Assembly: GCA_031265495.1 (NCBI GenBank) | Contig: JAISCP010000149.1 | Span: forward strand, 1-40,974 | Origin: Heliobacteriaceae bacterium | GTDB lineage: Bacteria; Cyanobacteriota; Vampirovibrionia; Gastranaerophilales; Gastranaerophilaceae | Reading direction: 5' to 3' | Length of the DNA stretch: 40,974 nt | Part shown: piece by piece, positions 16,201 through 34,673 of the stretch | Numbering within the stretch: position 1 is the first letter of the stretch | Layout of the letters: every line of letters begins with the position of its first letter | The notes under the pieces: generated by a model | The model's database searches: none | What the model was told of the DNA's origin: nothing | What the model saw: the letters and a program-made list of their open reading frames with translations, nothing else | Program-made: the position numbers and the translations under genes

Positions 16201-16216
16201 AGCTCCGAATTCATAA

Positions 16217-18049: not shown

Positions 18050-18065
18050 TTTTTAAACCTTTCAT

Positions 18066-18096: not shown

Positions 18097-18108
18097 TTTT
18101 TACATTAA

Positions 18109-19128
18109 CTAAGCGGCAGGCGCAAGCACTGCAAACGGATAACCGGCAGTTCCTTTGCGTCTTGTTGCCGGAACTGCTACCTGAACACCCAAACGCATTA
18201 CAACACGCAGCGCAACCATATCCTGTTGCGCAAGGTTATATGCAACTGTACCGTCTGTGTTAAATATAACAGCTTCGGTAAGCACTTTGTAGGTTATATC
18301 CTGACGAATTGCATAGACAGCTTTGGAGAAATCTCCGCCTACCAGAAGTGCCGTATCAAGGTCAAAGTAACCGGAATTATCGAATGAAATGGATCTGCCT
18401 GCTAAAACCCCTAAATCACCGTTTGCTTCCGGCGCTATATAGCTTTCCTTGTAGCTTCTGAATTTAGCTTCAAGAGTGCTGTCAGCAATGAAGCCGTTTA
18501 CTCTGTAACCGTCTTTTTCAACCAAAGACATTACACCGCCTTCGCCGACAATATCAAGAATGATATTGTTTTTGGTTTTAGAGCCGGTTGTAGTCGTAGT
18601 TACCGGAGTGTCTTCGTCTGTTACCCCCGTTGATGTGAAGTCGGAAACAGGTACTTGCACAGTACCCAGAGCAACTTCATTGCCTTTAGTTATTGCTGTG
18701 GGTACAATCGCGGAAGCCCAAGAGGCAGGTTTGTTAACGCCGAAAAGTATAGCGTTATCAATAGCAAGTCCCAGTGCTTCAACGATTTGAGGTTTGACTT
18801 CTCCCCAGATGTCGTAGTCTGCGTCATCCAGTACCGCTTCGGGAATTGGCACAATTACGGCTAATTCTTCTGCCGTAAGCTGCGAATTACCCCAAGTAGA
18901 TTTGGTTGTTTTTTTCTGTTCCGGCTCTGTGCCGTTTAAGAAGTATGCGTTTGCAAGTGATGTTGCAATCGGTATATTTCTTTGTTTTGCCGTCATATTA
19001 GGCAGTCTTCTCATCAAGGGAAGCACTTTTGAAGCTAAAGGGGCTTCTTTAATGATTTCTCTTGATGTTTCAACAGGGATTAACGCGTTAGCGTCATCTC
19101 TTGTAATAATATTTGCGTCTAATGTCAT
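18109..19128 (-). CDS. Major capsid protein (HK97 fold)
   Basis: A 339-residue protein, usual length for this family without a long delta domain. It begins with LIPVETSREIIKEAPLASKVLPLMRRLPNM-type sequence (N-arm and spine region). Then come ELAVIVPIPEAVLDDADYDIW, the E-loop-to-P-domain region AIDNAILFGV, and the A-domain end AVYAIRQDITYKVL and VALRVVMRLGVQVA. It assembles the icosahedral head around the scaffold encoded just upstream. The block portal-scaffold-capsid is displaced to the end of the operon. Confidence 0.9.
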   Translation of the reverse strand: MTLDANIITRDDANALIPVETSREIIKEAPLASKVLPLMRRLPNMTAKQRNIPIATSLANAYFLNGTEPEQKKTTKSTWGNSQLTAEELAVIVPIPEAVLDDADYDIWGEVKPQIVEALGLAIDNAILFGVNKPASWASAIVPTAITKGNEVALGTVQVPVSDFTSTGVTDEDTPVTTTTTGSKTKNNIILDIVGEGGVMSLVEKDGYRVNGFIADSTLEAKFRSYKESYIAPEANGDLGVLAGRSISFDNSGYFDLDTALLVGGDFSKAVYAIRQDITYKVLTEAVIFNTDGTVAYNLAQQDMVALRVVMRLGVQVAVPATRRKGTAGYPFAVLAPAA

Positions 19129-19143
19129 TTTATTTTTTCCTTT

Positions 19144-19698
19144 CTATTTTTTTGCTGCTGAGCGAATAGCATTATTCACATCAACATTTTTGTTTTGTGT
19201 CTTACCGTTTGTATTTTTCGGAACAGGCGGCTTTTTCTCAAGTTCTTTTTTCTTAAACGCTTCCAGCGCTTCGTCAGCGCTTTTTTTCTTTTCGCGCTCA
19301 AGAATTGACTTGAACATTTTCGCCTGCTCTTCTTCTGTTTCTGTTTGAAGAATTGTTGTAAATTCTTCCGGGTCAATACCTACTTCTTTAAAAGCTTCGC
19401 GGTATTTGTCCCGTTTTTCAAAACGTTCAACTAACTTTTTATATTCCGCAAGCTGTTCCGTTTCGTTTTTAGATTGAAATTCTTTAGTCTTGTGCTGCGC
19501 TATTTCTTTTTGCAAGGCGCTGATTTTAGCATCTTTGCCGGCAGTAGCGGACTTGATTTCTTCAATCTGTTTTTTGAGTTCTTCCAACTCATTGCCACCA
19601 TCTTCACCACCGTCTTGGGCGCCGCTTTCTTGAGTTTTTTTATTCTCGTCTTCGTTTCCCTGTCCGTCAGCTACTTTGTTTGCATTTTCATTTGTCAT
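19144..19698 (-). CDS. Capsid scaffolding protein (DUF4355-like)
   Basis: A 184-residue, highly charged protein. The first 45 residues are disordered and acidic, then a coiled coil (ELEELKKQIEEIKSATAGKD to FEKRDKYREAF), a middle GIDPEEFTTILQTETEEEQAKMF, and a basic tail with KTQNKNVDVNNAIRSAAKK likely to touch the capsid. These are the usual features of siphovirus scaffolds that direct head assembly and then leave. Its start overlaps the portal stop by 11 bases. Confidence 0.8.
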   Translation of the reverse strand: MTNENANKVADGQGNEDENKKTQESGAQDGGEDGGNELEELKKQIEEIKSATAGKDAKISALQKEIAQHKTKEFQSKNETEQLAEYKKLVERFEKRDKYREAFKEVGIDPEEFTTILQTETEEEQAKMFKSILEREKKKSADEALEAFKKKELEKKPPVPKNTNGKTQNKNVDVNNAIRSAAKK

Positions 19699-20995
19699 TG
19701 TTCATTTCCTTTCCATTTTCTTGTTTGTATTGTTCTTGTATGTCTTCCGCTTCGGTTTCGCTGTAACCGGCTTTTATCAGTATTTCTCTTTGCGGCAGCA
19801 GCGCACCGGCTTCTTTAAGGTCTTTTAAGTAGGTCATTACGTCTATTGGTATGTTTTTATTGAATTTGTAATCAATCTGGTAGGTGTCATAATCCTGTAC
19901 GCTGTCTATATCCAGCCCTGTCCAGTATGAGGCAAGAACATCATCAAGCTGCTGTAATGACTTTTGCCATTCGTTAATCAGATTATTACAATTGTTGTCC
20001 AGCCTGCGATACAGTTGCGAAATCTGAAATGCGGTTACGTTTGACAGGCTCTCCAGTACGTTTGGGTCGGGGATTGATGCGGTTGACCAGATAGACGACC
20101 ACGTACGTTCTGTAATAAATCTTGCAAAGTCGGGGTTAAGGTTTTTTGTGATAAATCTTGCGTCTGAATTCTCATTACGGCCTATAATCATTGCAAGGCG
20201 CTTAAATTCTTTTGCCGTAGCTTTGTCAATGTCGCCCATATCTTTAAGCAACAGATATGCCTGCCGTAAGCTGCCCCATTCGGTTAAGTTATCCGCTGTC
20301 AGTCTGTCGTAAGCATCCAGAAGATAAACCGATTTTTCAGAATTTCCGGTACGATTTTTATTATTTGGGAATTCAACCAGCGGCATTAAGCCGAACCCGT
20401 GCCTAAATTCACCTTGATATAGAGCGGATTTTATATTAGAAGCTGTGCTTGAATAGATACGGCAATTAGTGTTGTCATATTCATATATTTTAACGTTATC
20501 GGTTAAAGTTCCGTCTTTTTTCTTTTGATATTCGGTTACATACCCGTTACCTGTATCTTCGTCTATGTAAGTGTTCCAGCTGTATATTTTTTTTAAAGAT
20601 ACTCTGTTGTTATAATCTAAAAAAGAAAGCAGGTATGTATTGCCCCAGCCGCTGCAATCTTCCACAAGCTCTTTTAACAGTGTTTTCAAATAACACCGCC
20701 TTTCAAGGTCAGCATATTTTTTAATAACGTCTTCTTTTATGTCAGCTCCGAAAGTTACTTCAATATTTGCCCCGATATAACTTGATTTTTCTTCCTGAAT
20801 TTGTGAAAACAGGTTATGTTCAACTTTTATATTCGGGTCTATTGCTGTTTCTTTGCGGCGCGCTAAAATCGGAACACCGTCAGCTTTCAGCGCATTATCC
20901 CATTCAAAACGCGTTGCCGGAATTCCCTGCGAACGCCGCCAAAGATTGTATTTATATGTGTTCGGATTATTCTCCAAAAAGCTAAAATCTGTCAT
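19688..20995 (-). CDS. Portal protein (SPP1 gp6-like)
   Basis: A 435-residue protein of normal portal length. Signature parts are the clip/wing start (PILARRKETAIDPNIKVEHNLFSQI), YLKTLLKELVEDCSGWGNTYLL, the GLMPLVEFPNNKNRTG turn, and the long helix region ending DVLASYWTGLDIDSVQDYDTYQIDYKFNKNIP. A dodecamer of this protein forms the DNA entry vertex. Its ATG immediately follows the stop of J. In most siphoviruses portal follows the large terminase; here it is 11.7 kb away from it. Confidence 0.85.
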   Translation of the reverse strand: MTDFSFLENNPNTYKYNLWRRSQGIPATRFEWDNALKADGVPILARRKETAIDPNIKVEHNLFSQIQEEKSSYIGANIEVTFGADIKEDVIKKYADLERRCYLKTLLKELVEDCSGWGNTYLLSFLDYNNRVSLKKIYSWNTYIDEDTGNGYVTEYQKKKDGTLTDNVKIYEYDNTNCRIYSSTASNIKSALYQGEFRHGFGLMPLVEFPNNKNRTGNSEKSVYLLDAYDRLTADNLTEWGSLRQAYLLLKDMGDIDKATAKEFKRLAMIIGRNENSDARFITKNLNPDFARFITERTWSSIWSTASIPDPNVLESLSNVTAFQISQLYRRLDNNCNNLINEWQKSLQQLDDVLASYWTGLDIDSVQDYDTYQIDYKFNKNIPIDVMTYLKDLKEAGALLPQREILIKAGYSETEAEDIQEQYKQENGKEMNNDK

Positions 20996-23755
20996 TTAGA
21001 AATCCCTTGCTGTTATTGTTGCCGTTAAATCCTGATTGTATCTTATATCTGTTATCACGCAGTCATAAATAGTCTGCTGTCCGAGCGTGAATAAATCGCC
21101 GTCATAAAACCACTTGTCTTTTAACCCCTGAATTTCGCCCATTCCTTTGACTATGCAATCATAAGGAATAGGATTAATTCCAATAAATGAGCTTCTGCCG
21201 GAGTTTATAACATCATAAACATTTATAACCGGTCTTTCATTCGTATAATCCAATGAGCGTATTATTATTTTTGCGTTTTCCGGTATATCAACCAAAGAAC
21301 CGATTTTGAAGCCTTTAAGCATGCCGTTTTCGGTTACAACATCATGAATTAATCCGGTTACTTCGTTTTGCATATTCGCCGTGTTGGTAACATAGCACCG
21401 GTCAAGTAATTTAAGGTTTAACCCCTCAAGATTTACTTTAAATTCAAAATTATTACGCTTTGTCTGAATTGTGGTTAGTTTGTAAGTTACATATTTGACT
21501 AATGAAGCCTTATCGCGCACATAGTCGTAATCTTCTTTGACCAGTAAATAATCTTCGTCAGTTGTTCCCTCTTTTGGCGCATCATGCACTGCCCCGTCCC
21601 ACCAGTAAAGCGTAAATTCATCTTCAACCCATTCATCATTATTGACAAAATTAGCTCTGATTGCGCTCGTCACCTTACCGGTTAAGGGTGTCCATACAAA
21701 ACCCCAGCTGTTGTGCTGGTTGAATAACCCCACAGGTACTTTATCCTGATTATCAATAACAATCGTGTGCTTGCCGTTCCATAGAGGTATCATCGTTAAT
21801 TGTGCGTTTCTCAATATCGTGTCAATTATTGCGCCGGTCTTCTTTTCTCCGCTTTCTATGCCGTCCGCCTTGTATTGTTCCTGTTCGCACCATTCATAAG
21901 CCGCAACGAAACTATCATTATCAATATAATTCAGCGGTTCAGGGCGCGGATTTACTAACCGGCTGGTAAGCAGCCAGCGAACAATGGCAGCGGGATTGCT
22001 TGATTTATCAATGGTGTTCCAGTCTGTACCGTTCCATATCGGGATTTTTGCCTCCGCTATATAGTTAAATTTCTGCAAAGTACCGGACAAACCTTTATAT
22101 GCAATAGCTTCAAATCCTATCTGATTAACTTTTGGTAAAATCGCTTCGTTTAGAACAGGTTCGTCCATTCTGAACTGAACTTGGTTAGCGTAAGGAACGC
22201 CTATCTCCATGTTGGTTTTTTCAGCATAATCACCGGAGCGTATTCTTACAATATATTTGCCGGCCGGAACAGTAAACCCTATCATGCCGTAGAACATCTG
22301 GTCAGCTACTCCGATATTTGACGGGCTTTTGAAGGTTACGTTAGAGCCGTTTACTGTTATGCTTGGCGGCACAGATGATTTATTGCCGTCCATATCGCGA
22401 ATATACAACGTTGTTCCCTGTGTGAACGGCACATACTGCCCGTTTGGAGTTTTATACATTATTTCAACAGTGGCGTTTCTTGATTGTCTGTTTGAGCCGT
22501 TTATCTTGTACAATCCTTGCGGGAAGCTGATTATGACGTCAATATCCGTTGTGTTGTCCGGTGACGTTGCAAGGCATTCGCTTGGAGTACCGCCGTATTG
22601 GTTTATGGAATCGTTTACTGTCTGAGTGTCTGTATAATCATCTGTTGTGACAGTTTCGGAAACATACAAAGCGCTTAATTCGTTTGTGCTTTCAACCGCA
22701 TTGCCTCTTGTGGGTGAAATAGGCGCAAATTGCGTTGTAATAAGTTCTGTAATTGTCTGTGATGTGCTTGTAAGGTCATAAGAAGCTGTATTGTTATAGG
22801 TATAAGTATTGCTGCCCTGATTAACAAGCTGTGATGCTGCAATTGTAAAGTTTTGGCTTAATTGTACCTGCACGCCTGCAATTACAACGGTTGAAACCTG
22901 TTGAAACTGCTTTTGTGACCAGTTATTTATATCAACGTTTGTAAATTGAAGTTGGAAATCAATTTTAAGTGTTGCGGATGTGGTACTCTGGTTGTAATAA
23001 ACTATCGCGCTATTATTAACTTGTCCGTCAGGGTTGTAGCTTAATTCTTCGTTTATATCAACCTTTTTAACGTTATCAAAGCCGATAAAATTAGCCGAAC
23101 CTATTGCCTGATTGATGTTGATGTAATCTATTGAATAATCTGAAATAAAAGTATCGCCGAGCTTGAAATCAGAATATACAACGTTGTTGTAGTTGGCTAT
23201 GAAATATTGATACAACTTATTTGAACCCGTGCCGTTGTCAACTCCTATGTAAGGAAATTGTCCGTAGCAGGGGGTTTGCTGTACTCTGCCGAATACTACC
23301 GGTATTATGCCCTTCCCTATGTCATTGCTTGCGCCTTTAAGTTCGGGGTTTGTTGTGCTGGAATATTCTTTACTGCCCGTTGCGCCCGCGTTGCCTACGC
23401 CGCTGAAACCGCCCGCTAGGGCGTAGATGCCGGTGCCGACTGCGGTTACTGCACCTACTAAGGCTATGCCGCCCAATATTGCCAATTGCGTAGTGGTTAG
23501 CCCAAAACCAATGCCGGTAGCACCTACAAGCCAAGCGCCCAACCATGTAAATAAAGCTATTGTAGATGTTGGCTCACCCGGTCTTTCTATAACCTCTATA
23601 TGGTCGCCGTTTTTTAGAAAGTGATACCATTTTAATGGTTTTCCATTAATGTAACAATTTGTGAAGCTTTTAAAGTGCAGAAAAGCAGGGTGAAAATCCC
23701 ACTTTTTTGCAACTACTTCACTTTTGCCTAAGCATTTTTTTACAATTCTTATCAT
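20996..23755 (-). CDS. Tail tip protein of element 2 (TipJ/host specificity-like)
   Basis: A 919-residue protein. Residues about 1-60 form a small ubiquitin-like domain (CYINGKPLKWYHFLKNGDHIEVI), followed by hydrophobic Gly/Ala helices (IALFTWLGAWLVGATGIGF, AVTAVGTGIYALAGG). Then come the hub entry IGKGIIPVVFGRVQQTPCYGQ, beta-rich modules and a conserved-type region with VRWLLTSRLVNPRPEPLNY and FVAAYEWCEQEQY. It closes the tail tip and contacts the host. The layout ubiquitin-like plus hydrophobic segment plus hub is that of TipJ-family proteins. J of element 1 shares the design but little sequence. Confidence 0.8.
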   Translation of the reverse strand: MIRIVKKCLGKSEVVAKKWDFHPAFLHFKSFTNCYINGKPLKWYHFLKNGDHIEVIERPGEPTSTIALFTWLGAWLVGATGIGFGLTTTQLAILGGIALVGAVTAVGTGIYALAGGFSGVGNAGATGSKEYSSTTNPELKGASNDIGKGIIPVVFGRVQQTPCYGQFPYIGVDNGTGSNKLYQYFIANYNNVVYSDFKLGDTFISDYSIDYININQAIGSANFIGFDNVKKVDINEELSYNPDGQVNNSAIVYYNQSTTSATLKIDFQLQFTNVDINNWSQKQFQQVSTVVIAGVQVQLSQNFTIAASQLVNQGSNTYTYNNTASYDLTSTSQTITELITTQFAPISPTRGNAVESTNELSALYVSETVTTDDYTDTQTVNDSINQYGGTPSECLATSPDNTTDIDVIISFPQGLYKINGSNRQSRNATVEIMYKTPNGQYVPFTQGTTLYIRDMDGNKSSVPPSITVNGSNVTFKSPSNIGVADQMFYGMIGFTVPAGKYIVRIRSGDYAEKTNMEIGVPYANQVQFRMDEPVLNEAILPKVNQIGFEAIAYKGLSGTLQKFNYIAEAKIPIWNGTDWNTIDKSSNPAAIVRWLLTSRLVNPRPEPLNYIDNDSFVAAYEWCEQEQYKADGIESGEKKTGAIIDTILRNAQLTMIPLWNGKHTIVIDNQDKVPVGLFNQHNSWGFVWTPLTGKVTSAIRANFVNNDEWVEDEFTLYWWDGAVHDAPKEGTTDEDYLLVKEDYDYVRDKASLVKYVTYKLTTIQTKRNNFEFKVNLEGLNLKLLDRCYVTNTANMQNEVTGLIHDVVTENGMLKGFKIGSLVDIPENAKIIIRSLDYTNERPVINVYDVINSGRSSFIGINPIPYDCIVKGMGEIQGLKDKWFYDGDLFTLGQQTIYDCVITDIRYNQDLTATITARDF

Positions 23756-23810
23756 ATTGTTTCTTTTCTTTTTTGTTTATTTTATAAATTAATTATTGAA
23801 GGAAATTGTG

Positions 23811-24110: not shown

Positions 24111-24114
24111 AAAT

Positions 24115-24714: not shown

Positions 24715-24747
24715 TGATTTTGTGATAAAATAGAGCTGGAGTGAAGC

Positions 24748-25263
24748 ATGGCGAATGATTTAGTATTAATTCAAAATATGATTTATGAAGTGCGCGGGCA
24801 GCGTGTTATGTTAGATAGCGACCTTTCGGCATTATATGAGGTTGAAACCGGCGCATTGAACAGGGCTGTTAAAAGAAACCTAGAGTCTTTCCCTGATGAT
24901 TTTATGTTTCAGCTCACAGAAAATGAGGTTGAAACTTTGAGATGCCATTTTGGCATCTCAAAAGAAGGAAAAGGCGGAAGACGTTATCTGCCTTATGTTT
25001 TTACGGAACAAGGTGTTGCTATGTTATCCAGTGTCTTGAAATCTAAAAGAGCAAGAACGGTTAATATTCAAATTATGCGTGCGTTTGTGTCGTTGCGGCA
25101 TTATGTTCTTTCACAAATGGGAACGACTGAGCAAATCGCGGAACTGCGCAAGCTTTTAATGTTGTACATAGAAAAGAACGACAAGCGTGTTAATGAAATT
25201 ATTCTTGCTTTAAACAACCTTATAGAGCAGCCACGAGAGCCTAAGAAGATTGGGTTTAATTGA
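24748..25263 (+). CDS. ORF6N-domain protein
   Basis: A 171-residue protein, GTGAAGC-ATG context with TGGAG upstream. The ORF6N core is clear: YEVRGQRVMLDSDLSALYEV, LNRAVKRNLESFPDDFMFQL and RRYLPYVFTEQGVAMLSSVL, followed by the MRAFVSLRHY helix and a C-terminal coiled coil (IEKNDKRVNEIILALNNLI). The domain is a DNA-binding module of phages and mobile elements. Just before GGRRYLPY the gene contains a perfect 9-bp palindrome coding for LRCHFGI. It converges with the NlpC/P60 gene, overlapping it by eight bases. Confidence 0.88.
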   Translation: MANDLVLIQNMIYEVRGQRVMLDSDLSALYEVETGALNRAVKRNLESFPDDFMFQLTENEVETLRCHFGISKEGKGGRRYLPYVFTEQGVAMLSSVLKSKRARTVNIQIMRAFVSLRHYVLSQMGTTEQIAELRKLLMLYIEKNDKRVNEIILALNNLIEQPREPKKIGFN

Positions 25264-25600
25264 TTATTTCATAAATCTGCGCTTTAGCCGGTATATCGGC
25301 AACCTGCACACCCGTGCGGGTTTTGTGAATGTACTGTTTGTTGTTTATGGCGTATCCTGCATGCTCGTGACCTAACGCACTCACGTGGACTATGCAGCCC
25401 TCTTGGCAGTCTCTGAGGTCATGCTCTTTATATTTTACGTTGCACAAAAGTCTGCTTTTAAATGACTTATGCGTATCAAATATCGGGTAATCGGGCAGCT
25501 TATGACCTTTTTCCCGCTGAAAAACTCTCTGCACAAAGTGCCAACAATTATTGTAGTCCTCGTCATATTCTTTGTCATTCATGTATCTTAAAAAGTCCAT
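25256..25600 (-). CDS. NlpC/P60-family tail peptidase (gpK-like)
   Basis: A 114-residue protein with intact catalytic layout: C19 in DYNNCWHFVQRVF, H80 in GHEHAGYAINN and H92 in QYIHKTRTGV. This cysteine peptidase should cut wall peptide cross-bridges during genome entry. It follows the two distal tail genes at six bases and precedes the cargo region and J, as expected for a lambda K-type gene. It is better preserved than its element 1 counterpart at 4897. Confidence 0.85.
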   Translation of the reverse strand: MDFLRYMNDKEYDEDYNNCWHFVQRVFQREKGHKLPDYPIFDTHKSFKSRLLCNVKYKEHDLRDCQEGCIVHVSALGHEHAGYAINNKQYIHKTRTGVQVADIPAKAQIYEIIN

Positions 25601-25606
25601 AGAGCC

Positions 25607-26077
25607 TCACTTATAAATATTCGCGAATAACTGGCGGTTATATCTTATTGTGCCGGCGTTTATCTCAAAACAATTACGTATATTAAGCTGTGCGCTTACC
25701 GCTTCGTTTGTTATTGACAGCCCGGTTAACTCAAATTCGCCGCACTCGTAAGTTTCCGCTTCTTCTTTTTCAATGTTCGCAAGTTTTAAGTACAAAAGAA
25801 TATTTTCATTGCTTGAAATAGTTTTTCTTAACTCGTTTGAAACAAGATTATTTACGTTTGCTATAACTATTTGTGTACCCTGCGTTTCTGTCTGGTTCGG
25901 TAGCCGGATGTCAAACGGAAACGGCTGATACGTCTGAGTGTCAACGGTTAGCGGCTTTGTGTCGTTTATGAAATAAAATGTTTCGTCAAAAAGACTATGC
26001 GAAACCTCTATTAACATATTGATTGAACGCCCTAAGCCGCGTGAAAATGCGTTTTTATCAAGTTCAAATCTGCTCAT
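25607..26077 (-). CDS. Tail tip protein, DUF1833-like (gpL position)
   Basis: A 156-residue beta protein starting at ATG that overlaps the previous TGA (ATGA). Features: NMLIEVSHSLFDETFYFINDTKPLT, then YQPFPFDIRLPNQTETQGTQIVIANV and a late ECGEFELTGLSITNEAVSAQLNIRN. The sequence style and position before the NlpC/P60 gene match DUF1833/DUF2163-type hub proteins. It lacks the Cys cluster found in the element 1 homologue. Confidence 0.65.
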   Translation of the reverse strand: MSRFELDKNAFSRGLGRSINMLIEVSHSLFDETFYFINDTKPLTVDTQTYQPFPFDIRLPNQTETQGTQIVIANVNNLVSNELRKTISSNENILLYLKLANIEKEEAETYECGEFELTGLSITNEAVSAQLNIRNCFEINAGTIRYNRQLFANIYK

Positions 26078-26520
26078 AGGAACATAACTCCGTCTTGTAC
26101 TAATACTTTTCTATCATCATTTACAAGTAATACCCGGTCGTCATTTACGGCAAGATATTGCTTATATTTAATTTCCTGCGGTATGAACATCATCTTAATA
26201 CTTATTTGTCTTTTATTTGAAATCGGAACATCTGTGGGTTTATCTATAATCCTTGCAACACGCTCGGTATCTTTCACACAATCAAAATAAGTGAAATTTA
26301 TTGCACCTTGCCGCAAATCATTCTTATACCAATACCAGAAAAATTCTGCGTCTTCTTTGTCTAAAATTATTGTCCCCTGAACGATTTCGCCAATGTCGGT
26401 AAAACGTTCGCGCCGGTACGGCATTCCCGCGTCCGGGTCAACCTCAAGGTGTCCGGCCTGAAATTCGCGCTGCTGGCCTGATAATAAAATCCTGCCCCAT
26501 TCCCATTTTAATGTTGTCAT
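26074..26520 (-). CDS. Distal tail protein (gpM-like position)
   Basis: A 148-residue protein coupled to the tape measure by ATGA. The main part reads like a distal tail/tip beta domain (EVDPDAGMPYRRERFTDIGE, FFWYWYKNDLRQGAINFTYF). The last 30 residues carry a short tandem-like pattern, LAVNDDRVLLVNDDRKVLVQDG, which looks like an internal micro-duplication of a beta hairpin. Placement directly after the tape measure is that of lambda gpM or DUF2460 proteins. Exact family not recognised. Confidence 0.6.
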   Translation of the reverse strand: MTTLKWEWGRILLSGQQREFQAGHLEVDPDAGMPYRRERFTDIGEIVQGTIILDKEDAEFFWYWYKNDLRQGAINFTYFDCVKDTERVARIIDKPTDVPISNKRQISIKMMFIPQEIKYKQYLAVNDDRVLLVNDDRKVLVQDGVMFL

Positions 26521-29408
26521 GCTGCTGCTACTCCGCCATATCCGTTACGGCTCATAGCGCCGCTAAATGCTTCGTTAGAGCGGTCTGAATTCAGATATGA
26601 GTTAAATTCCATAATTTTCATATCAACATCGTTATTAGGTCGTCTGATAGTCTCAATTTTAGCGTTTGTATAGTTATAAACATTGACATTTGCAGGCTGA
26701 TTTTGGGCTTGTACGCCTAAATCACCGTTTTGCATGCGCTTTAAAGGCATTATACTCTCTTTGCCTGCTTCTCCCATAAGTCCGGCGCCGTTTTGCATTG
26801 GGAAGTATGTAGGCTTGTCGACAACTCCGCCCTGCGCGAACGGGATAACATTGCCGCCTTCAAATACTCCGCCTTTGGCAAATTTTCCGGCAAGTCTTGA
26901 TAATGCCATACCGCCCGCTGCGGCTACATTACCCGCGCCGATACCGACACCGGTGGCAGTTGCTGCGACAGGTGCAAGAAAACCGCCTACAAACGGTATC
27001 ATTGCGGTAGTTAAAGCCGCCTGTGAAATTGCCGCCTGCGTTAATGACGCGCCTAACTGCGCCGCCGCTGCCGCTGCCGGAGCCATAGCAGCGCTTGAAG
27101 CTGCCATAGCCGGAGCCGCCGCTATCATTGCCGGAGCCGCTTTAGTGATTGCGGCGGCAAGCAAAGAAGTCCCAGCGCCCGCTTTAACGCTGTCAGCTGC
27201 AAGTGAAGCCATTGGAGCCGCCGCGCCGGTAGTAACGCCTTTAAAGGCTGTCATTCCCATAAACAGTTCTTTAAATTTTTCAACAGCCGGCGCAATAATC
27301 AACGATTTTGTAATTTCCTGCGCCATTGCCTGAAAAGTGTTTATAGCAAGGTTGCTAAACCGCTCAAGAGCGTTTTCACCTTCTTTTAAAGGTGTTGTAA
27401 GCGCCTGTGTGAAGTCATTTTGCAAACTGTTCCAAACGTTGGATAAGTCAAGCCCTTCAAGGCTTTCCATAAAGTTTTGAGTTTGTTTTAGCTGATTTTC
27501 AAGTCCTTTAACGGCGTTTTTCTGCTCGTATATAGCTGCCAGTGAACCGGTTCTATGTATTACCCATTGCGCTGTCAAATCCGCTAATATGCGTTTTTCT
27601 TCCGATAACCTGTAATTCAGCTCATTAAACGGTGATATTTCAATATGCGCCGCCCGTTGGACTTCTTCAAACTTTTTAGTGAGCGCTATAACTTCATTTC
27701 TTGTCCGCTGCGTATTAACCATATCGCCGGAAGCGGCAAAATCGTTAAGTCTTGTTTGCGCAAGCTGTATTTTATGCTGCAATTCCTCAAAAGGATGGAT
27801 TGATATAGATGTTGCATTTTTTAGAGTTTCTATTTTTTTTGTAAGCTCAACCGCGCTTGCTTTTGCTTTTATAAACGGGTCGCTGTCAGGGGCATTAGCA
27901 TAACGCTGCATTATATCCTGCTGTACTTCAAGGTCTTTTCTAAGCTGCTCTACGTAGGTTGTTATGCCTTTTTTGCCTTTAGAGCCATCTCCGCTTGAGT
28001 TTTGAAAGCCTGAACCTTTTTTAGCTGCTGTTGCTACATTTTTCGCTACTTCTTCCTGTAATTTAATCTGTTCTTTTGTCCTGCTTATAGCTGCTTCAAT
28101 TTGTGCAAGTTGTCTTTCAGGAAGATTATTATTTAAGTTATTTGATTTATTACCTTCGATTATTTTTCTATATCTATCAGCTTGTACTTGAAGCCCCTTG
28201 AGAGTTCCTTCATAATTGATGCTAACCGGTTCAGAGAGTTCTATTAATCTCAAGACGGCATCACCGAGTTTAATCATAGCCTTTTGCGCTAATTTTGCAG
28301 CCGGCAAAAACTTATCACCTATTTTTTTAGATATAATTTCCCAATTATCTGCATTTGTTGACATTAAGCCGTTTAATGTCTTTGATTGTTCGTTCATTAA
28401 ACCGTAATAACGGCCGCCCTCGCTTGTTGCCTCTCTCATTGCTTCTTTAACCATTGAAAACGAGATTTGCCCTTTGCTCATTTCATCCTGAAGCTGTGAC
28501 ATTGATTTGCCGGTTTTTTCGGAAATAACTTGCAATGGGTTAAAACCTTGATTAATCATCTGCCGGGCATCTTGACCTAACAGACGCCCCGCTGCGCCGG
28601 CTTGCGCAAATGCAAGCGCTAAATAATCCATTCTTTGTTGGTTGCCGCCGGAAATATCACCAAGAAGCTTTAAATCCTCTATAACATTTTCAGCGCTTTC
28701 ACCAAATCCTAAAAGAGTTTGAGTATTTTTGCTTAAGCCCTGTGTTGTCATAGGCGTAACTTTAGCAAGTTGTATAATTTGGTCGGTTAATTGTTGACCT
28801 AACTCTGCGCTGCCGGTCATTACCCTGAATGATACACTAAGCTGCTCGAATGAAGCTGCTGTATCTATTACTTGTTTAGGTATATTAATCAGAGCATCAC
28901 TGAGTTTTTTCAAACCATAAAGAGCTGCACCCGTTAGAGCAGTTCGTAATTGAATTAAGCTGGCATAGCATAGTTTATTAGATTTAGTATTACCGTCAAC
29001 TGCTAATTTTGCTTGATTTAAAGCATCTTTATTCTTTAAAACCAGTTCCTGAAGCTGCCGGAATTCTTTAGTATTGGTTTTGCCTTGCAAGGCAAGTGTT
29101 CTCAAACCTTCTTCCGCTCCCCTTGTCGCAGTTTGCAGCGCTGCGAATGAACTTTTAGAATCACTAAGCTTTTGAAATTCGTTAAATGTAGCTTGGGCTG
29201 ACTTTCTTACAGCGTCAAGATTTTCCTGTAACTTATATTGGGTTGCAAGTGCATTTTGCGACTTTGTAAAGGCATATTGCGAATTAGTAAGATTTTTAAT
29301 AGCCCGTTCCAGACCGTTAGAAGCAGCGGTAGTATTAGCAAAATCCGCCGCTATTTCTTTAGCGTTACTTTGAAGATATATTACTACTTTTCCGTCTTCT
29401 GTCGGCAC
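26517..29408 (-). CDS. Tape measure protein
   Basis: A 963-residue protein starting at GTG 29408 (AAGGA upstream). Residues about 190-380 hold the tape-measure N-terminal domain (SFRVMTGSAELGQQLTDQII, LLGQDARQMINQGFNPLQVI, EAMREATSEGGRYYGLMNEQ). Coiled coils follow (400-680), then an Ala-rich hydrophobic stretch (about 740-860) and a Gly-rich end with FAKGGVFEGGNVIPFAQGG and LMGEAGKESIMPL. It sets tail length and probably helps DNA cross the membrane. About 1.5 angstrom per residue predicts a tail near 140 nm. Chaperones G/GT are encoded just upstream. Confidence 0.92.
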   Translation of the reverse strand: MPTEDGKVVIYLQSNAKEIAADFANTTAASNGLERAIKNLTNSQYAFTKSQNALATQYKLQENLDAVRKSAQATFNEFQKLSDSKSSFAALQTATRGAEEGLRTLALQGKTNTKEFRQLQELVLKNKDALNQAKLAVDGNTKSNKLCYASLIQLRTALTGAALYGLKKLSDALINIPKQVIDTAASFEQLSVSFRVMTGSAELGQQLTDQIIQLAKVTPMTTQGLSKNTQTLLGFGESAENVIEDLKLLGDISGGNQQRMDYLALAFAQAGAAGRLLGQDARQMINQGFNPLQVISEKTGKSMSQLQDEMSKGQISFSMVKEAMREATSEGGRYYGLMNEQSKTLNGLMSTNADNWEIISKKIGDKFLPAAKLAQKAMIKLGDAVLRLIELSEPVSINYEGTLKGLQVQADRYRKIIEGNKSNNLNNNLPERQLAQIEAAISRTKEQIKLQEEVAKNVATAAKKGSGFQNSSGDGSKGKKGITTYVEQLRKDLEVQQDIMQRYANAPDSDPFIKAKASAVELTKKIETLKNATSISIHPFEELQHKIQLAQTRLNDFAASGDMVNTQRTRNEVIALTKKFEEVQRAAHIEISPFNELNYRLSEEKRILADLTAQWVIHRTGSLAAIYEQKNAVKGLENQLKQTQNFMESLEGLDLSNVWNSLQNDFTQALTTPLKEGENALERFSNLAINTFQAMAQEITKSLIIAPAVEKFKELFMGMTAFKGVTTGAAAPMASLAADSVKAGAGTSLLAAAITKAAPAMIAAAPAMAASSAAMAPAAAAAAQLGASLTQAAISQAALTTAMIPFVGGFLAPVAATATGVGIGAGNVAAAGGMALSRLAGKFAKGGVFEGGNVIPFAQGGVVDKPTYFPMQNGAGLMGEAGKESIMPLKRMQNGDLGVQAQNQPANVNVYNYTNAKIETIRRPNNDVDMKIMEFNSYLNSDRSNEAFSGAMSRNGYGGVAAA

Positions 29409-29436
29409 TTGAAATTTTCCTTATTTTTGTTATAAT
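29409..29436 (+). promoter_or_regulatory. Candidate antisense promoter at the tape measure start
   Basis: TTGAAA (29409-29414), 16-base spacer, TATAAT (29431-29436) on the + strand, opposite to the tail operon. It would drive the tiny frame starting at 29443. It overlaps the SD region of the tape measure gene, so transcription here could interfere with it. Confidence 0.4.
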
Positions 29437-29442
29437 GTAAAT

Positions 29443-29514
29443 ATGAATAAAAAGAATGATTTTTGGATATTATCTTTATTATGGGCTATTTTCTTTGGTA
29501 TTATTGACGCTTAA
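29443..29514 (+). CDS. Possible 23-residue hydrophobic peptide (antisense in the tail operon)
   Basis: ATG six bases after a good -10 box; the product KKNDFWILSLLWAIFF plus GIIDA is a single short membrane helix. It lies in the only gap of the minus-strand tail operon between the GT frame and the tape measure, and its stop overlaps the GT stop. It has no SD and so would rely on leaderless translation. It could be chance, but promoter, start and hydrophobic content agree. Confidence 0.3.
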   Translation: MNKKNDFWILSLLWAIFFGIIDA

Positions 29515-30142
29515 AACCCCCTGTGCGCTAAATCATCTTCGATAAGGTATCTTATTGCGTGCGCAATAGGTTTTGTGAGTTCTTCAAGCTTGAGCGCCAG
29601 CAAACCGGAGCGGTACCAGCGCCATAACTCTAAGATTTGATAAAATTCCGCGTCAAGATTGGCGTATAAATCCTTGTTTTTACCTATTGCAACAGGGTTG
29701 TTATAATCCGGGCCGACAAAATTAAACTTGTCAGCCTCGCGCGGGTCATAATCTAGCTTTCCGCTTTTGTAGATTTCCCAGCCGATACGGACTTTTTTCC
29801 GAGTTTCTCCTGTAGTTCCTGCTGCTTGTTAAACACTTCAATCATCTTAACTATGCACTCATAGTGTATCTGGTTGATTTCTTTTGAGCTTCCGGCGTTT
29901 ATAAGCCCTTGATAATCAAAGTATTGGTACGGTTTGCCATCAAGCTCTATTTCAGGTTTATTCTCAAAACCTTCAAAACAGTTGATAAGCAAAGACCTGT
30001 AACACTCTGAAATGTCCGTAATAAATGGGTTTATGTCACCTGCCAGCGGTTCGCGGAACTTGATTTTAAAAGGTTTATCCTCGCCGGCACACACCGACGG
30101 GATAACCTCAAATTCTTGCTTTGGAATTATGTTTAATTTCAT
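29511..30142 (-). CDS. Tail assembly chaperone GT (made by -1 frameshift)
   Basis: Not visible as a normal gene because the second part has no start codon. Zero-frame G protein (117 codons to the slip) continues in the -1 frame: VRIGWEIYKSGKLDYDPREA, then FNFVGPDYNNPVAIGKNKDL and ending in IRYLIEDDLAHRGF, TAA at 29511. The fused product is 210 residues. The -1 frame stays open for 93 codons with strong coding character, and its position between G and the tape measure is the canonical place for T. As in lambda, a minority GT product should bridge G-coated tape measure and tube subunits. Confidence 0.85.
29753..30142 (-). CDS. Tail assembly chaperone G
   Basis: The zero-frame product of 129 residues (MKLNIIPKQEFEVIPSVCAG start). 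It is helical after residue 40 (ISECYRSLLINCFEGFENKP, GSSKEINQIHYECIVKMIEVF) and ends SVSAGKSTKAES shortly after the slippery site, so the two products share 117 residues. It coats the tape measure during assembly and is absent from finished tails. It lies seven bases after the tube gene. Confidence 0.8.
   Translation of the reverse strand: MKLNIIPKQEFEVIPSVCAGEDKPFKIKFREPLAGDINPFITDISECYRSLLINCFEGFENKPEIELDGKPYQYFDYQGLINAGSSKEINQIHYECIVKMIEVFNKQQELQEKLGKKSVSAGKSTKAES
29792..29798 (-). promoter_or_regulatory. -1 ribosomal frameshift slippery heptamer (A_AAA_AAG)
   Basis: On the minus strand the codons GGA AAA AAG place AAAAAAG exactly in the X_XXY_YYZ register. A -1 slip joins G to the T frame. 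This is the same heptamer found in higB2 at 13820-13826. Confidence 0.85.
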
Positions 30143-30149
30143 TGGCTGC

Positions 30150-30833
30150 CTACGCTTTCAGCAGCTCGTACACATGCGGAACGAGGTTGTCGTCTGACAC
30201 AATGCGCACATTAGACGAAAATGTCTGCATACCGTCAGCAGCGCCGCCCAGATTAAAGCCGAATAATTTACCCGGAAATACAAACGCCATATCCGGCACA
30301 CCTGCCTTAGTCACACCATAGGTAAGCTCTGTGTAAAAGTAGAACGGGTTATCGTCAACCTCTACGTTTTCAATGGTTTCAAAGTCCGCAGACTGCTTAA
30401 CAATCGGTAATACTTTAGATATGAGGTCTTCGGATAGTCCGGCAGTTGCAACGCCCTCAACCGTGATTGTAGCGTCAGCCAGACCTTTTTCGTAAACTTT
30501 AACCTCATCGCACTGGGTTGTTGCGTCAATCTCATCAAACGTAAACTCTGCTGTAAATGATGTGAAATCACATCGGTCAGCAAGCCCTGACTTGTCCGGC
30601 GGCGAAAGCAGGTAAACTACGTCTCCAACTTCCGGCGTAATTTCAGCAGTACCGCCTACTCTGAATGTTTTACCGGGTTCTGCGCCTGTTGGCAAGCCGG
30701 AAGTTGAAGCAACTGACTTGACCAGATAGTACCCTGCCGCTAATTCTGTTGTACCGTCTCCGACAATCGGGCTTGTGATGTCAAAAGTGTAAGTATGTGT
30801 GTTTTTTCCTGTAAGTTTTTGTGTTGCTGTCAT
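30150..30833 (-). CDS. Major tail tube protein
   Basis: A 227-residue, Thr/Gly/Val-rich beta protein (KLTGKNTHTYTFDITSPIVG start; LADRCDFTSFTAEFTFDEID and MAFVFPGKLFGFNLGGAADG later). Its ATG has GAAAGGA upstream. Size and place between tail terminator and chaperones mark it as the tube subunit. It is not clearly similar in sequence to the tube of element 1. Confidence 0.8.
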   Translation of the reverse strand: MTATQKLTGKNTHTYTFDITSPIVGDGTTELAAGYYLVKSVASTSGLPTGAEPGKTFRVGGTAEITPEVGDVVYLLSPPDKSGLADRCDFTSFTAEFTFDEIDATTQCDEVKVYEKGLADATITVEGVATAGLSEDLISKVLPIVKQSADFETIENVEVDDNPFYFYTELTYGVTKAGVPDMAFVFPGKLFGFNLGGAADGMQTFSSNVRIVSDDNLVPHVYELLKA

Positions 30834-30851
30834 TTTATTTTTCCTTTCTTT

Positions 30852-31232
30852 TTAACTTTCTGTGTAAACAAATTCGCGCGCGGCTGTTGCGCAAGGTAAG
30901 CCGTTTTCTACATCATTGCCGACAACTGATGTATGCTTAATATTTTTCAAAATCGTGTAATTCCCGACATAATCAAGGTTTGCAAGGTAATTAACCAGAG
31001 CGTCCCGAATTGTTGTTATTGCGTAAAAGTCCAGCCCATAAATACGAAACTCCATGAATTCGGTGTAATCGTTGCGGCATTGTGTTAAAGGAGTATCACC
31101 GTAATCAAGGCTTGTCTGTACAATGTAGGTAGCTTTGGCGTTCTGTTCAACTTCACCGAAGTAAATCGGGTACTTTTTGCCGTTTACCGTAAAATCAGCA
31201 TTTATGTCCTCATATAGCGCTTGTTCAAACAC
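30852..31232 (-). CDS. Tail terminator protein
   Basis: A 126-residue protein (FEQALYEDINADFTVNGKKY start; ATYIVQTSLDYGDTPLTQCR and FRIYGLDFYAITTIRDALV). The fold pattern matches DUF3168/gpU-like terminators that stop tube growth and join the tail to the head. Its start overlaps the HK97 gp10-like gene by eight bases, showing coupling within the connector block. Confidence 0.7.
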   Translation of the reverse strand: MFEQALYEDINADFTVNGKKYPIYFGEVEQNAKATYIVQTSLDYGDTPLTQCRNDYTEFMEFRIYGLDFYAITTIRDALVNYLANLDYVGNYTILKNIKHTSVVGNDVENGLPCATAAREFVYTES

Positions 31233-31638
31233 TTATCATTTTCCTTTTAAATTCGTCAATAAATATTGCGCCTACTCTTGCTTGCATGTGCCGCGCTGCG
31301 TTTCGCATAATAGCCCGCGCCGGACGCGCTTTTTGGTGTACTTCTTTTGCAAAAACCGTTTCGCCCCCGACTTCAAATTTTAACGCCTTACCGTTTTTGG
31401 GCTTGATTATGCGCACACGCACACCATATTCAAGCGCTGCGCTGTACGGAGCATTGGCTATTACCTGTTTAGAGCGTTTGTAATACCTGATACTGCGCTT
31501 GTACTTGCCGGTCTTTACCGGCGCCGTCATTTGGGCTTCATCCACGATTTCCTGCCCGACTTTATCAAGTACAACGTCTGCAACATCTGTAATTACGCTA
31601 AAGTCCGGCATTTTCCACGTGTAGCCGCTTTTTGCCAT
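31225..31638 (-). CDS. HK97 gp10-like head-tail joining protein
   Basis: A 137-residue basic protein. Typical traits are IVDEAQMTAPVKTGKYKRSI, APYSAALEYGVRVRI and the C-terminal helix RPARAIMRNAARHMQARVG. The A-P-V-K-T-G and A-L-E-Y-G motifs are the hallmarks of the gp10/minor tail family. It acts at the head-tail interface. Confidence 0.85.
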   Translation of the reverse strand: MAKSGYTWKMPDFSVITDVADVVLDKVGQEIVDEAQMTAPVKTGKYKRSIRYYKRSKQVIANAPYSAALEYGVRVRIIKPKNGKALKFEVGGETVFAKEVHQKARPARAIMRNAARHMQARVGAIFIDEFKRKMISV

Positions 31639-32000
31639 TATATTGCCTCTTGGAAGTAAACCAACTTGTATTCCGCATGCTGTCCGCGTTTTGGCTTAAT
31701 GCCGGTTATACCGTCTTTTTGCATGCTGTTGCTGTCGTCAAAAATCTTGTATTTTGTACCGGAAACATCGGCTATAATGTCTTTTGGTTCAAACTTTTGC
31801 TTTTCGGAGCAAAAAAGTATCGCAGCGATATTAGCGGTATCTTTTGAATTAACTTGAGTTAAAGACGTAAACGTGCGCCCGGCCGGCGGTTGAATAAGCC
31901 CCTTAAATTTTGCTCTGGGGATGTAACCGCCCTCTTGTCCGAAATAAGGCTCTTGCCAGCCGTATATGGTCAGAGATTTGTAATATTTTGATATTGACAT
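31638..32000 (-). CDS. Head closure / stopper connector protein
   Basis: The ATG at 32000 overlaps the upstream TGA (TGATG) and is preferred to GTG codons six bases earlier; 120 residues. Elements: YYKSLTIYGWQEPYFGQEGG, AKFKGLIQPPAGRTFTSL, ILFCSEKQKFEPKDIIADVSG and YKLVYFQEAI. This is the small beta-barrel pattern of stopper proteins (SPP1 gp16/HK97 gp7-like). It should cap the connector after packaging. Confidence 0.65.
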   Translation of the reverse strand: MSISKYYKSLTIYGWQEPYFGQEGGYIPRAKFKGLIQPPAGRTFTSLTQVNSKDTANIAAILFCSEKQKFEPKDIIADVSGTKYKIFDDSNSMQKDGITGIKPKRGQHAEYKLVYFQEAI

Positions 32001-32692
32001 CACCACGCCTTTAATTTTGAGTAATACTCAATTGCATTTGCGATTGACACCGGATAATCCAGCGCGCCAAGACGTTTAACACTGCCGTCAATCTCATAAC
32101 GGTAAGACCCTACTGTTTCGGATTGCAAGCTGCCCCCTGACGAGCTGCCGCGCTCAAATACATCATAGTTAATCATCTGTGCGATTGCAATTTCAAATCT
32201 TGACGGAAGCACCATTAAATCAAGCTTCGCAGGCTCTATTGTGTTTACAAAGTTAGGATTATCAACCGTAATGCTGTTTACATCCGTACTGGTAACGTAA
32301 CTGACAAATCGGTTACGGTGTCCGTCAACTCTTATCAAATCCCCTGTCTGATAGCCTGAAATCGGACTTATAACCCCGTTATCAAAGTTTGTCATCGGGC
32401 GTTGAACATTGCAATGTCTGCAATAGCTGTAAGTCTGCGGTATAAACCAGTTGTTTAGATAGTGACAAATGCCCTCGAGAGTGGAGTAAATTGCCTCTTG
32501 TATACGTCCGTCCTCTATCTGCTCTATGCGCGTGTAAACAAATGCCTCATTATCCTGCGTCACGTCATAGCTGTAACCGGACGTATAATCACCGGATGTC
32601 AAAGTACACAGCCACATACCGACAGCTTCCTGCGGCGTGTCCTGTACAAAATCGTACTGCTTTTGTTTTTTAACTAAAAGTAAATCAATCAT
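32000..32692 (-). CDS. Head-tail adaptor protein
   Basis: A 230-residue protein starting at ATG overlapping the terminase stop (TAATG). Position between terminase and stopper and the helical C-terminal end (FEIAIAQMINYDVFERGSSS, YPVSIANAIEYYSKLKAW) match gp6/gp15-type adaptors. An inserted SH3-like segment (TGDLIRVDGHRNRFVSYVTS) and a CRHC motif are unusual additions and make it longer than typical adaptors. Confidence 0.6.
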   Translation of the reverse strand: MIDLLLVKKQKQYDFVQDTPQEAVGMWLCTLTSGDYTSGYSYDVTQDNEAFVYTRIEQIEDGRIQEAIYSTLEGICHYLNNWFIPQTYSYCRHCNVQRPMTNFDNGVISPISGYQTGDLIRVDGHRNRFVSYVTSTDVNSITVDNPNFVNTIEPAKLDLMVLPSRFEIAIAQMINYDVFERGSSSGGSLQSETVGSYRYEIDGSVKRLGALDYPVSIANAIEYYSKLKAW

Positions 32693-34044
32693 TAAAAAGG
32701 CCTCATTGTTGGCATAACTACCTGTTTTTTAATCTGTCTTATCGCACTTGCCAGACAATCCGGCGCGTGGTCGTCTTTGGCAAACTCGTTGTATCTTCGG
32801 CACTCCTCTATAAAATCCTCATCAGTATCCGGGTGCCAGCGGATGCTTGACCACTCGGCATAAAGATAGGTCATTATTTTTCGGTGCTTGTTCTCTTTTT
32901 CGTGATAACCCTGAATGCCTGCGTAATTACGGCTTGCGGTGTTTTTATCGTCATTTTTCTCTGTGAAAATCGTACCGCAAAGGACTTTATCACGCGCCGC
33001 GTAGATTTCGCTAAGCTTATCTATGTAATGCGCGCCAATCCAGAGTTTGCCGTAAACGTATAAAAGCCCGTCATGCTCTTTGATTGTACAAAACGCTGTA
33101 CTGTCCGAACCGTCAAAACCCTTATCAAGCAAGCAAATCCCGTTATGAAATCTGTCTAAATCATCCGCGTAATTAATGCCGCTGAAAGTGTAGATTATAT
33201 CGGCTTTTGGCTGCTGCTGGTACTGTGCGTAAAACTCCGCCGGTCTTTTCTCACGCAGAGATATAAGCTCTTGTGTTGTTATATTATCAGGGTTTTGGCT
33301 CTGGCCGTCAACCAGAGCCGGAACATTGATTACATCCCAATCTGTTTCATTTTGCAAAATCCAGCCGGTCAAATCATCAGGGTCAAGCCGCTGCATAATC
33401 AATATAATAGGTACGTCATTACGGCGTTTGCGGTTTTTGAGAGTTTTGTTGTAAGTATCAACTATGCGCTTGCGATAGCTGGCGTAAACCATTTGCTGGG
33501 GCTTCTGCGGGTCGTCTATTACAATAGCGCCGCAAAAGTTATCTTTGATTGCGGGATTGCCGCCGTTGACACCTGTTATCGTACCGTCCATACTTGCGGC
33601 TGTCATGCCGGATGATTGCGTGGTGCCGTCTATTGCCCAATTGTGTTTGTTTGACTTATCTTTGCGGATTTTGTAACCCCAAAGATTTTTCACAAAATCG
33701 CTCTCAATGGTCTTTTTAACATCATCCGAACACGATTGTATCAGGCTGTCACTGTAAGATGTGTACAGGTGGCAGATATTCGGGTTTTTTATCAAAGTCC
33801 ACGCCAAAAAGTATTTAAACAGGCGGCTTTTACCCCATCCCGGCGGCATATTAATTACAAGGTTTTGGGCTGTTTGATAGTCTGCTATCGCCTGCAGCTT
33901 GTCAATCAACGGGCATAAAAACGTATAAAACCGGTATTCACAGCCTTCAACCACTTTATGGATAAAATATATAAATGTGCGAAAATCCTTCTCACAAGCG
34001 GCTTTTAGTGTTAGTTTGTCATTATGACTTATATTATCAAGCAT
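32692..34044 (-). CDS. Terminase large subunit
   Basis: A 450-residue DNA-packaging motor. Residues 66-73 are a Walker A (MPPGWGKS), 174-178 a Walker B (IVIDD), with coupling region IILIMQRLDPDDL. The C-terminal RNase H-like nuclease includes GFDGSDSTAFC (around residue 310) and a late DHAPDCLASAIRQI with acidic residues. It belongs to the T4-type/Terminase_6-like group. Its start overlaps the small subunit by eight bases. It is directly followed by connectors with no portal. Confidence 0.92.
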   Translation of the reverse strand: MLDNISHNDKLTLKAACEKDFRTFIYFIHKVVEGCEYRFYTFLCPLIDKLQAIADYQTAQNLVINMPPGWGKSRLFKYFLAWTLIKNPNICHLYTSYSDSLIQSCSDDVKKTIESDFVKNLWGYKIRKDKSNKHNWAIDGTTQSSGMTAASMDGTITGVNGGNPAIKDNFCGAIVIDDPQKPQQMVYASYRKRIVDTYNKTLKNRKRRNDVPIILIMQRLDPDDLTGWILQNETDWDVINVPALVDGQSQNPDNITTQELISLREKRPAEFYAQYQQQPKADIIYTFSGINYADDLDRFHNGICLLDKGFDGSDSTAFCTIKEHDGLLYVYGKLWIGAHYIDKLSEIYAARDKVLCGTIFTEKNDDKNTASRNYAGIQGYHEKENKHRKIMTYLYAEWSSIRWHPDTDEDFIEECRRYNEFAKDDHAPDCLASAIRQIKKQVVMPTMRPF

Positions 34045-34462
34045 CTTTAATAGTTTGGTTTATTGCGGCTATAAAATCGTCAACCTTTGAGTTATCAACT
34101 TGAACATTTACAAGCATCCCGCTTATATCTTGCTCTTGCTTGGTACTAAACTCGTCCTTACATTTGCGCTCTAAATACCACTTTGCGATATCTTTGTCGC
34201 CAATATCCAGAGCAATATCGATTACTTTTTTTGCCTTAAAAACCGGATTTAATTTTAATGCGTATTTTTTCTGTATAAATTCGGGATTTTCGCGTTGATA
34301 ATCATAAAGTGCTTCCGGGCTTATGCCCGCATAAAAACAGGCATCTCTGTCACTGCAAGCAAGGGCAAAAGCATGCTGGAGTTTAGACAGTACGCTATCA
34401 TTAAAAACTGTCGGTCTACCCACTTTTTTTTTATGTAATGATTTTGGTTTTTTAGCAGTCAT
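34037..34462 (-). CDS. Terminase small subunit
   Basis: A 141-residue protein with N-terminal basic tail (KKPKSLHKKKVGRPTVFN) and a helix-turn-helix region typical of small terminases (LQHAFALACSDRDACFYAGI, PEALYDYQRENPEFIQKKYA). Then a YLERKCKDEFSTK-type linker and a C-terminal helix for oligomerisation or large-subunit binding. It binds the pac or cos site. Its ATG overlaps the upstream TGA. Confidence 0.85.
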   Translation of the reverse strand: MTAKKPKSLHKKKVGRPTVFNDSVLSKLQHAFALACSDRDACFYAGISPEALYDYQRENPEFIQKKYALKLNPVFKAKKVIDIALDIGDKDIAKWYLERKCKDEFSTKQEQDISGMLVNVQVDNSKVDDFIAAINQTIKDA

Positions 34463-34662: not shown

Positions 34663-34673
34663 GTTTATTCCTC

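Follow-up and report, generated by a model that had tools for sequence, protein, structure and literature searches.

The window analysed here, the whole 40,974-nucleotide contig JAISCP010000149.1 of the Heliobacteriaceae bacterium assembly GCA_031265495.1 (Gastranaerophilaceae), carries two pieces of phage DNA. Element 1 lies on the + strand; element 2 lies on the − strand and extends from about 37.1 to 15.9 kb. Element 2 is very probably a prophage late operon of siphovirus type, in which the head block (portal, scaffold and capsid genes) lies after the tail tip gene J and before the fibre genes, so that terL, the gene for the terminase large subunit, is joined directly to the neck genes. This displaced order is a stable arrangement common to a phage clade. 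Read along the − strand, the genes follow the order terS, terL, adaptor, stopper, gp10, tail terminator, tube, G, tape measure protein (TMP), three tip genes of which the last encodes an NlpC/P60 protein, J, portal, scaffold, capsid and fibre. A first-pass annotation, made from the sequence alone, had proposed this order, and we found every gene on the − strand and in the place assigned to it.

In a canonical siphovirus operon the portal and capsid genes lie between terL and the neck genes; in the window, terL adjoins the adaptor gene and the portal gene adjoins J. The portal scored 131.2 bits against the PF05133 profile (cut-off 25.5) over residues 33–427 of 435, which places it among the SPP1-type portals, and the capsid protein scored 89.9 bits against PF05065 (cut-off 24.2), which places it in the HK97-fold Phage_capsid family. 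The stop codon of J (TAA) and the portal ATG abut with 0 bp between them, as the first-pass annotation had claimed. The terL and adaptor genes overlap by one base, at position 32692, and the portal and scaffold genes overlap by 11 bp. A complete set of head, neck and tail gene classes is present in the window, several of them assigned by position and homology only. Like the textbook siphovirus operon (pattern A of PMC5908442), element 2 comprises terS, terL, an SPP1-type portal, a scaffold, a PF05065 capsid, a possibly Type 1-like neck, tube, TMP, tip and J; it differs in having portal, scaffold and capsid after J and terL joined to the adaptor. The order terminase-portal-capsid-neck-tail serves phage annotation and is often assumed to be necessary for assembly or timing. 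Whether it matters can be asked directly in a lineage whose head genes come last and for which canonical relatives of both operon halves are available.

Phages that share the displaced order

The first relative, IMG/VR contig L002 (record G120), was found through its TerL (32% identity). Its order from terL and adaptor to J is identical to that of the window, and its portal gene (46% identity) directly follows J. The second relative, L034 (record G121), was found through its capsid and reads J-portal-MuF-scaffold-capsid-fibre, with terS-terL-adaptor further upstream. Further contigs were recruited with three-row profiles of J and portal; single-sequence portal and J searches of viral contigs returned no relatives, and the three-row J alignment returned none when scanned against named genomes. 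Other phages with both adjacencies, for which the first-pass annotation had proposed to search, do exist. J-portal adjacency was present in all nine IMG/VR clade contigs that continue past J (L117–L123, L130 and L280), in addition to the window, and terL-adaptor adjacency in all 10 clade members whose sequence includes terL (the window, L117, L118, L120, L123, L125, L149, L278, L280 and L285). In the G155 genome, from the same host family, terL adjoins the adaptor gene on a contig that stops inside J.

The two junctions were compared in detail. Five of seven terL-adaptor junctions contain, by eye, a small ORF of about 70 codons (G120, G121, v28591, v33463 and v32038b); G155 has a short gap there and the window the overlap described above. 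The J-portal spacing, read in eight contigs and the window, is a 1-base overlap in v35130 and v20045, 11 bases in three rumen-type near copies, 17 in G120 and v28591, and 117 in G121, with the two genes abutting in the window. Some of these contigs are redundant: J and portal are identical in v28797 and v33463, v32038a/b are 95–98% identical to them, and the portals of G120 and v28591 are 96% identical. Once near copies are discounted, about seven distinct lineages cross J. The window J shares 52–55% identity with six full-length relatives and 45–61% with partial ones. Weak J matches (E about 1e-4) were also seen in G131, G340 and G343.

Where relatives allowed a comparison, selection on the displaced block is strongly purifying, a result that applies to the lineage and not to the window copy. 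The dN/dS ratio of the portal was 0.041 and 0.037 in two near-identical pairs, and one pair gave 0.023 for MuF, 0.024 for the scaffold and 0.042 for the capsid; for comparison, J, adaptor and tube gave 0.05–0.11. The first-pass annotation had regarded the block as functional and not as a random scar. This holds for the lineage, given the shared order and the purifying selection, and does not carry over to the window copy, whose left end looks damaged.

A portal tree was built from 100 loci, of which 30 matched; 11 of these were left out because their aligned part did not exceed 250 aa. Because nine displaced portals (including that of the window, excluding that of L280) form one clade with support 100/100, a single origin of the displaced order is favoured, though not proven. 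Within this stable order, the terL and capsid slots were swapped to other families. The terL slot holds one family (phrog_38) in the window and G120, with homologues in v32038b and G155, and a second (phrog_2/5653) in G121, to which the TerL proteins of v28591 and v33463 are homologous. A quick capsid tree with SH-aLRT as its only support measure was built from L033 and L035–L111 (78 loci, L112 left out; 66 kept, with more than 250 aa aligned) together with six displaced capsids. It placed the capsids of the window and G121 in a starred set of five with L033, L035 and L036, and those of G120 and its kin apart; L036 has the canonical order and L033 is scrambled in another way. The capsid slot of v20045 is occupied by another family, which matched neither the capsid queries nor Pfam. 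In L122, at 5558–6475, the displaced block has a capsid of another family without a Pfam match, which by eye resembles the capsid of the myovirus-like prophage L022.

Gene content and proposed working of the operon

The coordinates in this section refer to the − strand unless stated otherwise. The operon opens with terS, the terminase small subunit gene (34037..34462, 141 aa; phrog_4102, E 9.4e-17), and terL (32692..34044, 450 aa; phrog_38, E 1.2e-59), which has homologues at the same place in the relatives and lies directly next to the gene for the adaptor-like neck protein (32000..32692, 230 aa). The adaptor has a weak match to phrog_1236 (E 8.5e-7) and is 33–49% identical to its counterparts in displaced relatives and 20% identical to that of the canonical G403. 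A stopper-like neck protein (31638..32006, 122 aa) and a tail terminator-like protein (30852..31232, 126 aa) were assigned by position and by homologues in the relatives, neither having a family match, and between them lies an HK97 gp10-like / Neck1 protein (31225..31638, 137 aa; PF04883, 3.3e-8; phrog_5, 2e-14). The sizes, the order and the gp10/Neck1 match would fit a Type 1 neck (Ad1-Hc1-x-Tc1, PMC4362835), but the adaptor model is too weak to confirm the fold.

The tail tube protein (30150..30833, 227 aa) has no family match and was assigned by position, by homologues in relatives and by a beta-rich model of low confidence with several tail tubes among its top, non-significant PDB matches. 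The tail assembly chaperone-like protein G (29753..30142, 129 aa) has no PHROG match; it lies between the tube and the TMP and has homologues in the relatives. The TMP itself (26517..29408, 963 aa) matched PF20155 (1e-24) and phrog_9959, and is followed by a tail tip protein (26074..26520, 148 aa; phrog_384, 3e-8), a DUF1833 tail tip protein (25607..26077, 156 aa; PF08875, 8.8e-12; phrog_396) and an NlpC/P60 tip peptidase (25256..25600, 114 aa; PF00877, 3.2e-6). The J-like tail tip / host specificity protein (20996..23755, 919 aa) has neither a PHROG nor a Pfam match and was recognised by the J proteins of the relatives and by annotated tail fibre / tip genes of five isolates, to which it is 21–26% identical. 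No sheath gene was matched among 20 scanned proteins of 15925–34716, which fits the predicted siphovirus form.

The displaced head block starts with the portal gene (19688..20995, 435 aa; PF05133 SPP1_portal, E 6.7e-38; phrog_64, 1.5e-44) and ends with the gene for the major capsid protein (18109..19128, 339 aa; PF05065, 2.4e-25; phrog_10, 1.7e-40). The scaffold-like protein between them (19144..19698, 184 aa) is 28–40% identical to the proteins that relatives encode between portal/MuF and capsid; it has no phage family match and one H-NS match under that family's cut-off. A MuF-like gene is missing from the window, where portal directly overlaps scaffold, and is present in the seven relatives that reach past the portal. 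A second head module, which the first-pass annotation had recognised would undo its reading, did not appear: among the three head families searched, the 95%-complete genome holds one PF05133, one PF05065 and zero PF04860. After the capsid come a hairpin (18066..18099) and a tail fibre-like protein (16217..18049, 610 aa) that belongs to no named family and has weak homologues after the capsid in relatives. An apparent C-terminal fibre piece (15925..16200, 91 aa), recognised by eye from sequence and position, probably completes it, so that the fibre gene looks split over 15925–18049. The hairpin is a candidate terminator or attenuator: five of the five capsid-fibre junctions tested, those of relatives included, fold into a hairpin, at −17.2 to −24.5 kcal/mol per 73–96 base stretch and with a T-rich sequence after the stem, values obtained without a shuffle control.

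An insert on the + strand (24100–25263) carries an ankyrin-repeat gene and an ORF6N antirepressor-like gene between NlpC and J, at a place where NlpC and J overlap in relatives such as G120. Because this insert precedes J, J-portal-scaffold-capsid may form a separate unit in the window. Neither the insert, which splits the tip genes from J, nor the split-looking fibre gene was mentioned in the first-pass annotation. A scan for promoter-like sites returned 63 against 44.8 ± 7.3 in shuffled sequence and is unusable for placing promoters.

Phage proteins need not be encoded in the order in which they assemble. From the gene arrangement, we would expect portal, scaffold and capsid to be expressed from the operon's distal end, either by read-through or by coupling across the J/portal junction, and the late transcript perhaps to end at the post-capsid hairpin. 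The products of the distal end would then build the procapsid, TerL would dock on the portal in trans, and the neck proteins would close the head before the tail joins, as in an ordinary siphovirus. Gene order would thereby affect dosage and timing, and not particle geometry.

Several observations weigh against this reading of the operon and against a single origin of its order. The neck and tube folds are unsupported by the predicted structures, since the models of the adaptor (pLDDT 58.9) and the tube (pLDDT 60.7) both lack a PDB match at E ≤ 0.001. The consensus terminator scan lists the window stem on the + strand only (18074–18091), and terminator-like sites in the region (24, with 20.9 ± 4.4 expected) are not above chance. 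The portal tree is unrooted and its long-branch warnings name the window row; the adaptor tree needs only one order change, but its branch support is weak (27/20). Homologues of J outside the clade (G403, 30–34% identity; L287) sit in canonical order. The window copy itself may be decayed or dead, because an insert precedes J, the fibre gene is apparently split, and an integrase was not matched among the 40 window proteins, a part of the window's ORFs, that were scanned against PHROGs.

Origin of the displaced order

The displaced order looks derived, because relatives of both halves of the operon keep the canonical order. For the neck and tail half, G403 (contig C39) comes from the same host family and, besides J, has homologues of the small tip genes, NlpC, adaptor (20–25%) and tube (20–27%); unlike the window, it carries an HK97-type portal (phrog_12), a protease (phrog_80) and a capsid at the usual place between terL and adaptor, with a fibre-like gene after J. 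Among 15 loci with adaptor homologues, eight have the displaced order (five of them on already-known contigs) and seven the canonical one; four of the latter (L286–L289) match HK97-type portals, and the portals of the other three (L290–L292) are relatives of the L022 or G121 portal. Five isolates matched J, and gene order was read in three, Rhizobium RHph_Y3_1, Bradyrhizobium ppBdUSDA122-1 and Stenotrophomonas SOVA965, all of which keep head before tail; in SOVA965 the capsid precedes the portal. RHph_Y3_1 shares J and the small tip genes with the window and, like G403, differs in having an HK97-type portal together with protease and capsid in their usual position. For the head half, the portal relative Aeribacillus phage AP45 also has head before tail. 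AP45 and L292 share the SPP1-type portal family with the window; unlike in the window, their head block lies between terL and the neck. L292 (3300038954_000076) further has terL2, adaptor, gp10 and TMP homologues, which together with its portal stand in textbook order, as by eye do its MuF, scaffold, capsid, stopper, tail terminator and tube.

A single ancestral exchange of the head and neck-tail blocks is the most likely origin of the displaced order. The neighbouring blocks from portal to capsid and from adaptor to J would have changed places once in an ancestor of textbook order, with breakpoints at terL/portal, capsid/adaptor and J/fibre.

It is possible, though we hold it only tentatively, that a phage with an HK97-type head instead acquired a foreign SPP1-type head cassette between its J and fibre genes, passed through a two-headed intermediate and later lost its original head. 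Such a recipient would resemble G403, a canonical neck-tail relative in the same host family with its HK97-type head genes in place, as well as L286–L289 with their HK97-type portal matches and RHph_Y3_1 and ppBdUSDA122-1, where a protease or peptidase accompanies portal and capsid in the customary position. On the other hand, L290–L292 combine portals related to L022/G121 with homologous adaptors in textbook order, so that simple translocation would suffice without a foreign head; two-headed phages did not turn up, and the seven terL-adaptor junctions showed no head remnant. An unlikely third route starts from a phage with an SPP1-type head: a neck-to-J module would have entered between its terL and portal genes, and its own tail would then have been lost. 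Both TerL types do adjoin SPP1-type portals in canonical phages (terL1 in L022; terL2 in L133, L134, L136, L038 and L058), whereas the TerL tree is too weak to name the parent that supplied terL.

Two further explanations can be set aside. A chance scar, in which the head genes of another prophage were left beside a dead tail module, could be imagined from the position of element 1, a tail module for which the window has no head genes, next to element 2. It is very improbable, and we reject it at the level of the lineage, since the order is common to the clade, the portals form one clade and dN/dS indicates purifying selection. A mis-join at 20995/20996 or 32692, raised by the first-pass annotation as something that would overturn the order and conceivable in a genome of 153 contigs of which the window is one whole contig, is the least probable of all and is rejected for gene order, because both junctions recur in other contigs whose J, portal and adaptor are 33–61% identical to those of the window.

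In the commonest of the published gene orders (pattern A of PMC5908442, which names two others), the packaging, portal and capsid genes largely form a cluster ahead of the tail genes; PMC4362835 describes strong constraints on neck gene positions. According to PMC8705779, head-gene position varies in transposable prophages of Leptospira as it does here, with terS-terL-portal staying together there; in the displaced order, by contrast, the portal leaves terL and follows J. The literature searched, which most subscription papers lie outside, held no description of J-portal adjacency or of Gastranaerophilales phages in the text available.

A second order in the host family and the setting of the window

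We surveyed 288 host-family genomes, of which 60 have a PF05133 portal, and DNA was available for 30 of 70 portal places. The gene upstream of these 30 portals was TerL in nine, a fused tail tip protein in nine, J in one (the window) and another gene or no long ORF in eight, with too little sequence in three. TerL is upstream of L239, L249, L250, L252, L254, L260, L263 and L266, and one gene further up in L257 (seen in L271); the fused protein is upstream of L255, L256, L258, L259, L261, L262, L264, L265 and L267. This protein matches phrog_2913 and phrog_778, has homology to element 1 of the window, and is what we take to be DUF2460/DUF2163. In three loci from genomes of genus code g26 (L241, L247 and L248), the gene ahead of the high-scoring SPP1-type portal is not TerL but an ATPase-like one (phrog_10430).

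Six regions with the fused tip protein were read further. G116 is canonical, and the five others (G262, G067, G142, G230 and G161) read tip-portal-scaffold-capsid-neck-tube-terS-terL. In G262 and G067 a chaperone and the TMP stand before the tip gene and NlpC-J after terL; in G142 and G230 the chaperone stands after terL instead, and G161 stops inside terL. The loci with this second order are L268+L274 (G262 C8), L269+L275 (G067), L270+L276 (G142), L272 (G161) and L273+L277 (G230), and also L033. The group (e.g. G262 C8) shares with the window the host family, a related capsid family and a tail gene before the portal; it differs in that the portal follows the DUF2460/DUF2163-like tip gene and terS-terL lie after the tube. 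Its split between terL and portal looks derived as well, because the TerL and portal families of the group (E 2e-229 and 6e-201) are neighbours in L036, a contig of canonical order with a sheath-like gene by eye. By eye, the tape measure in this group seems to be no longer than about 310 aa and to have a tape-measure-like end. L270+L276 (G142 C11) has two short tape-measure-like genes, one before tip-portal and one after terL and the chaperone, which would fit a duplication or tandem prophages.

We consider it about an even chance that gene order in Gastranaerophilales phages was disrupted on two or more occasions with different outcomes, one in the clade of the window and one in the second group, that the head block and the terminase act as movable cassettes, and that the common order elsewhere reflects regulation or recombination history more than a need of assembly. 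In phages of this gut group, genes can be misidentified when they are annotated from their neighbours.

The window corresponds to one entire contig (C108) of a 2.05 Mb genome that is 95% complete. A 13-base second copy of the kind expected for an attachment site at tRNA-Asp (37421–37498) was not found elsewhere in the window; the 3′ end of this tRNA gene points toward element 2, and the 3′ end of a tRNA gene is a usual attachment place of a prophage. The flanking gene at 37777–39495 is up to 91% identical to genes of Candidatus Gastranaerophilales genomes, many of animal-gut origin, which places the host in this group. Element 1 (2345–15859, + strand) comprises a tail module including J, with its tail genes within 2345–12243, and no head genes were recognised for it in the window. 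Downstream of its tail genes lie, by eye, toxin-antitoxin-like, deacetylase-like and acyltransferase-like genes, and its end faces element 2.

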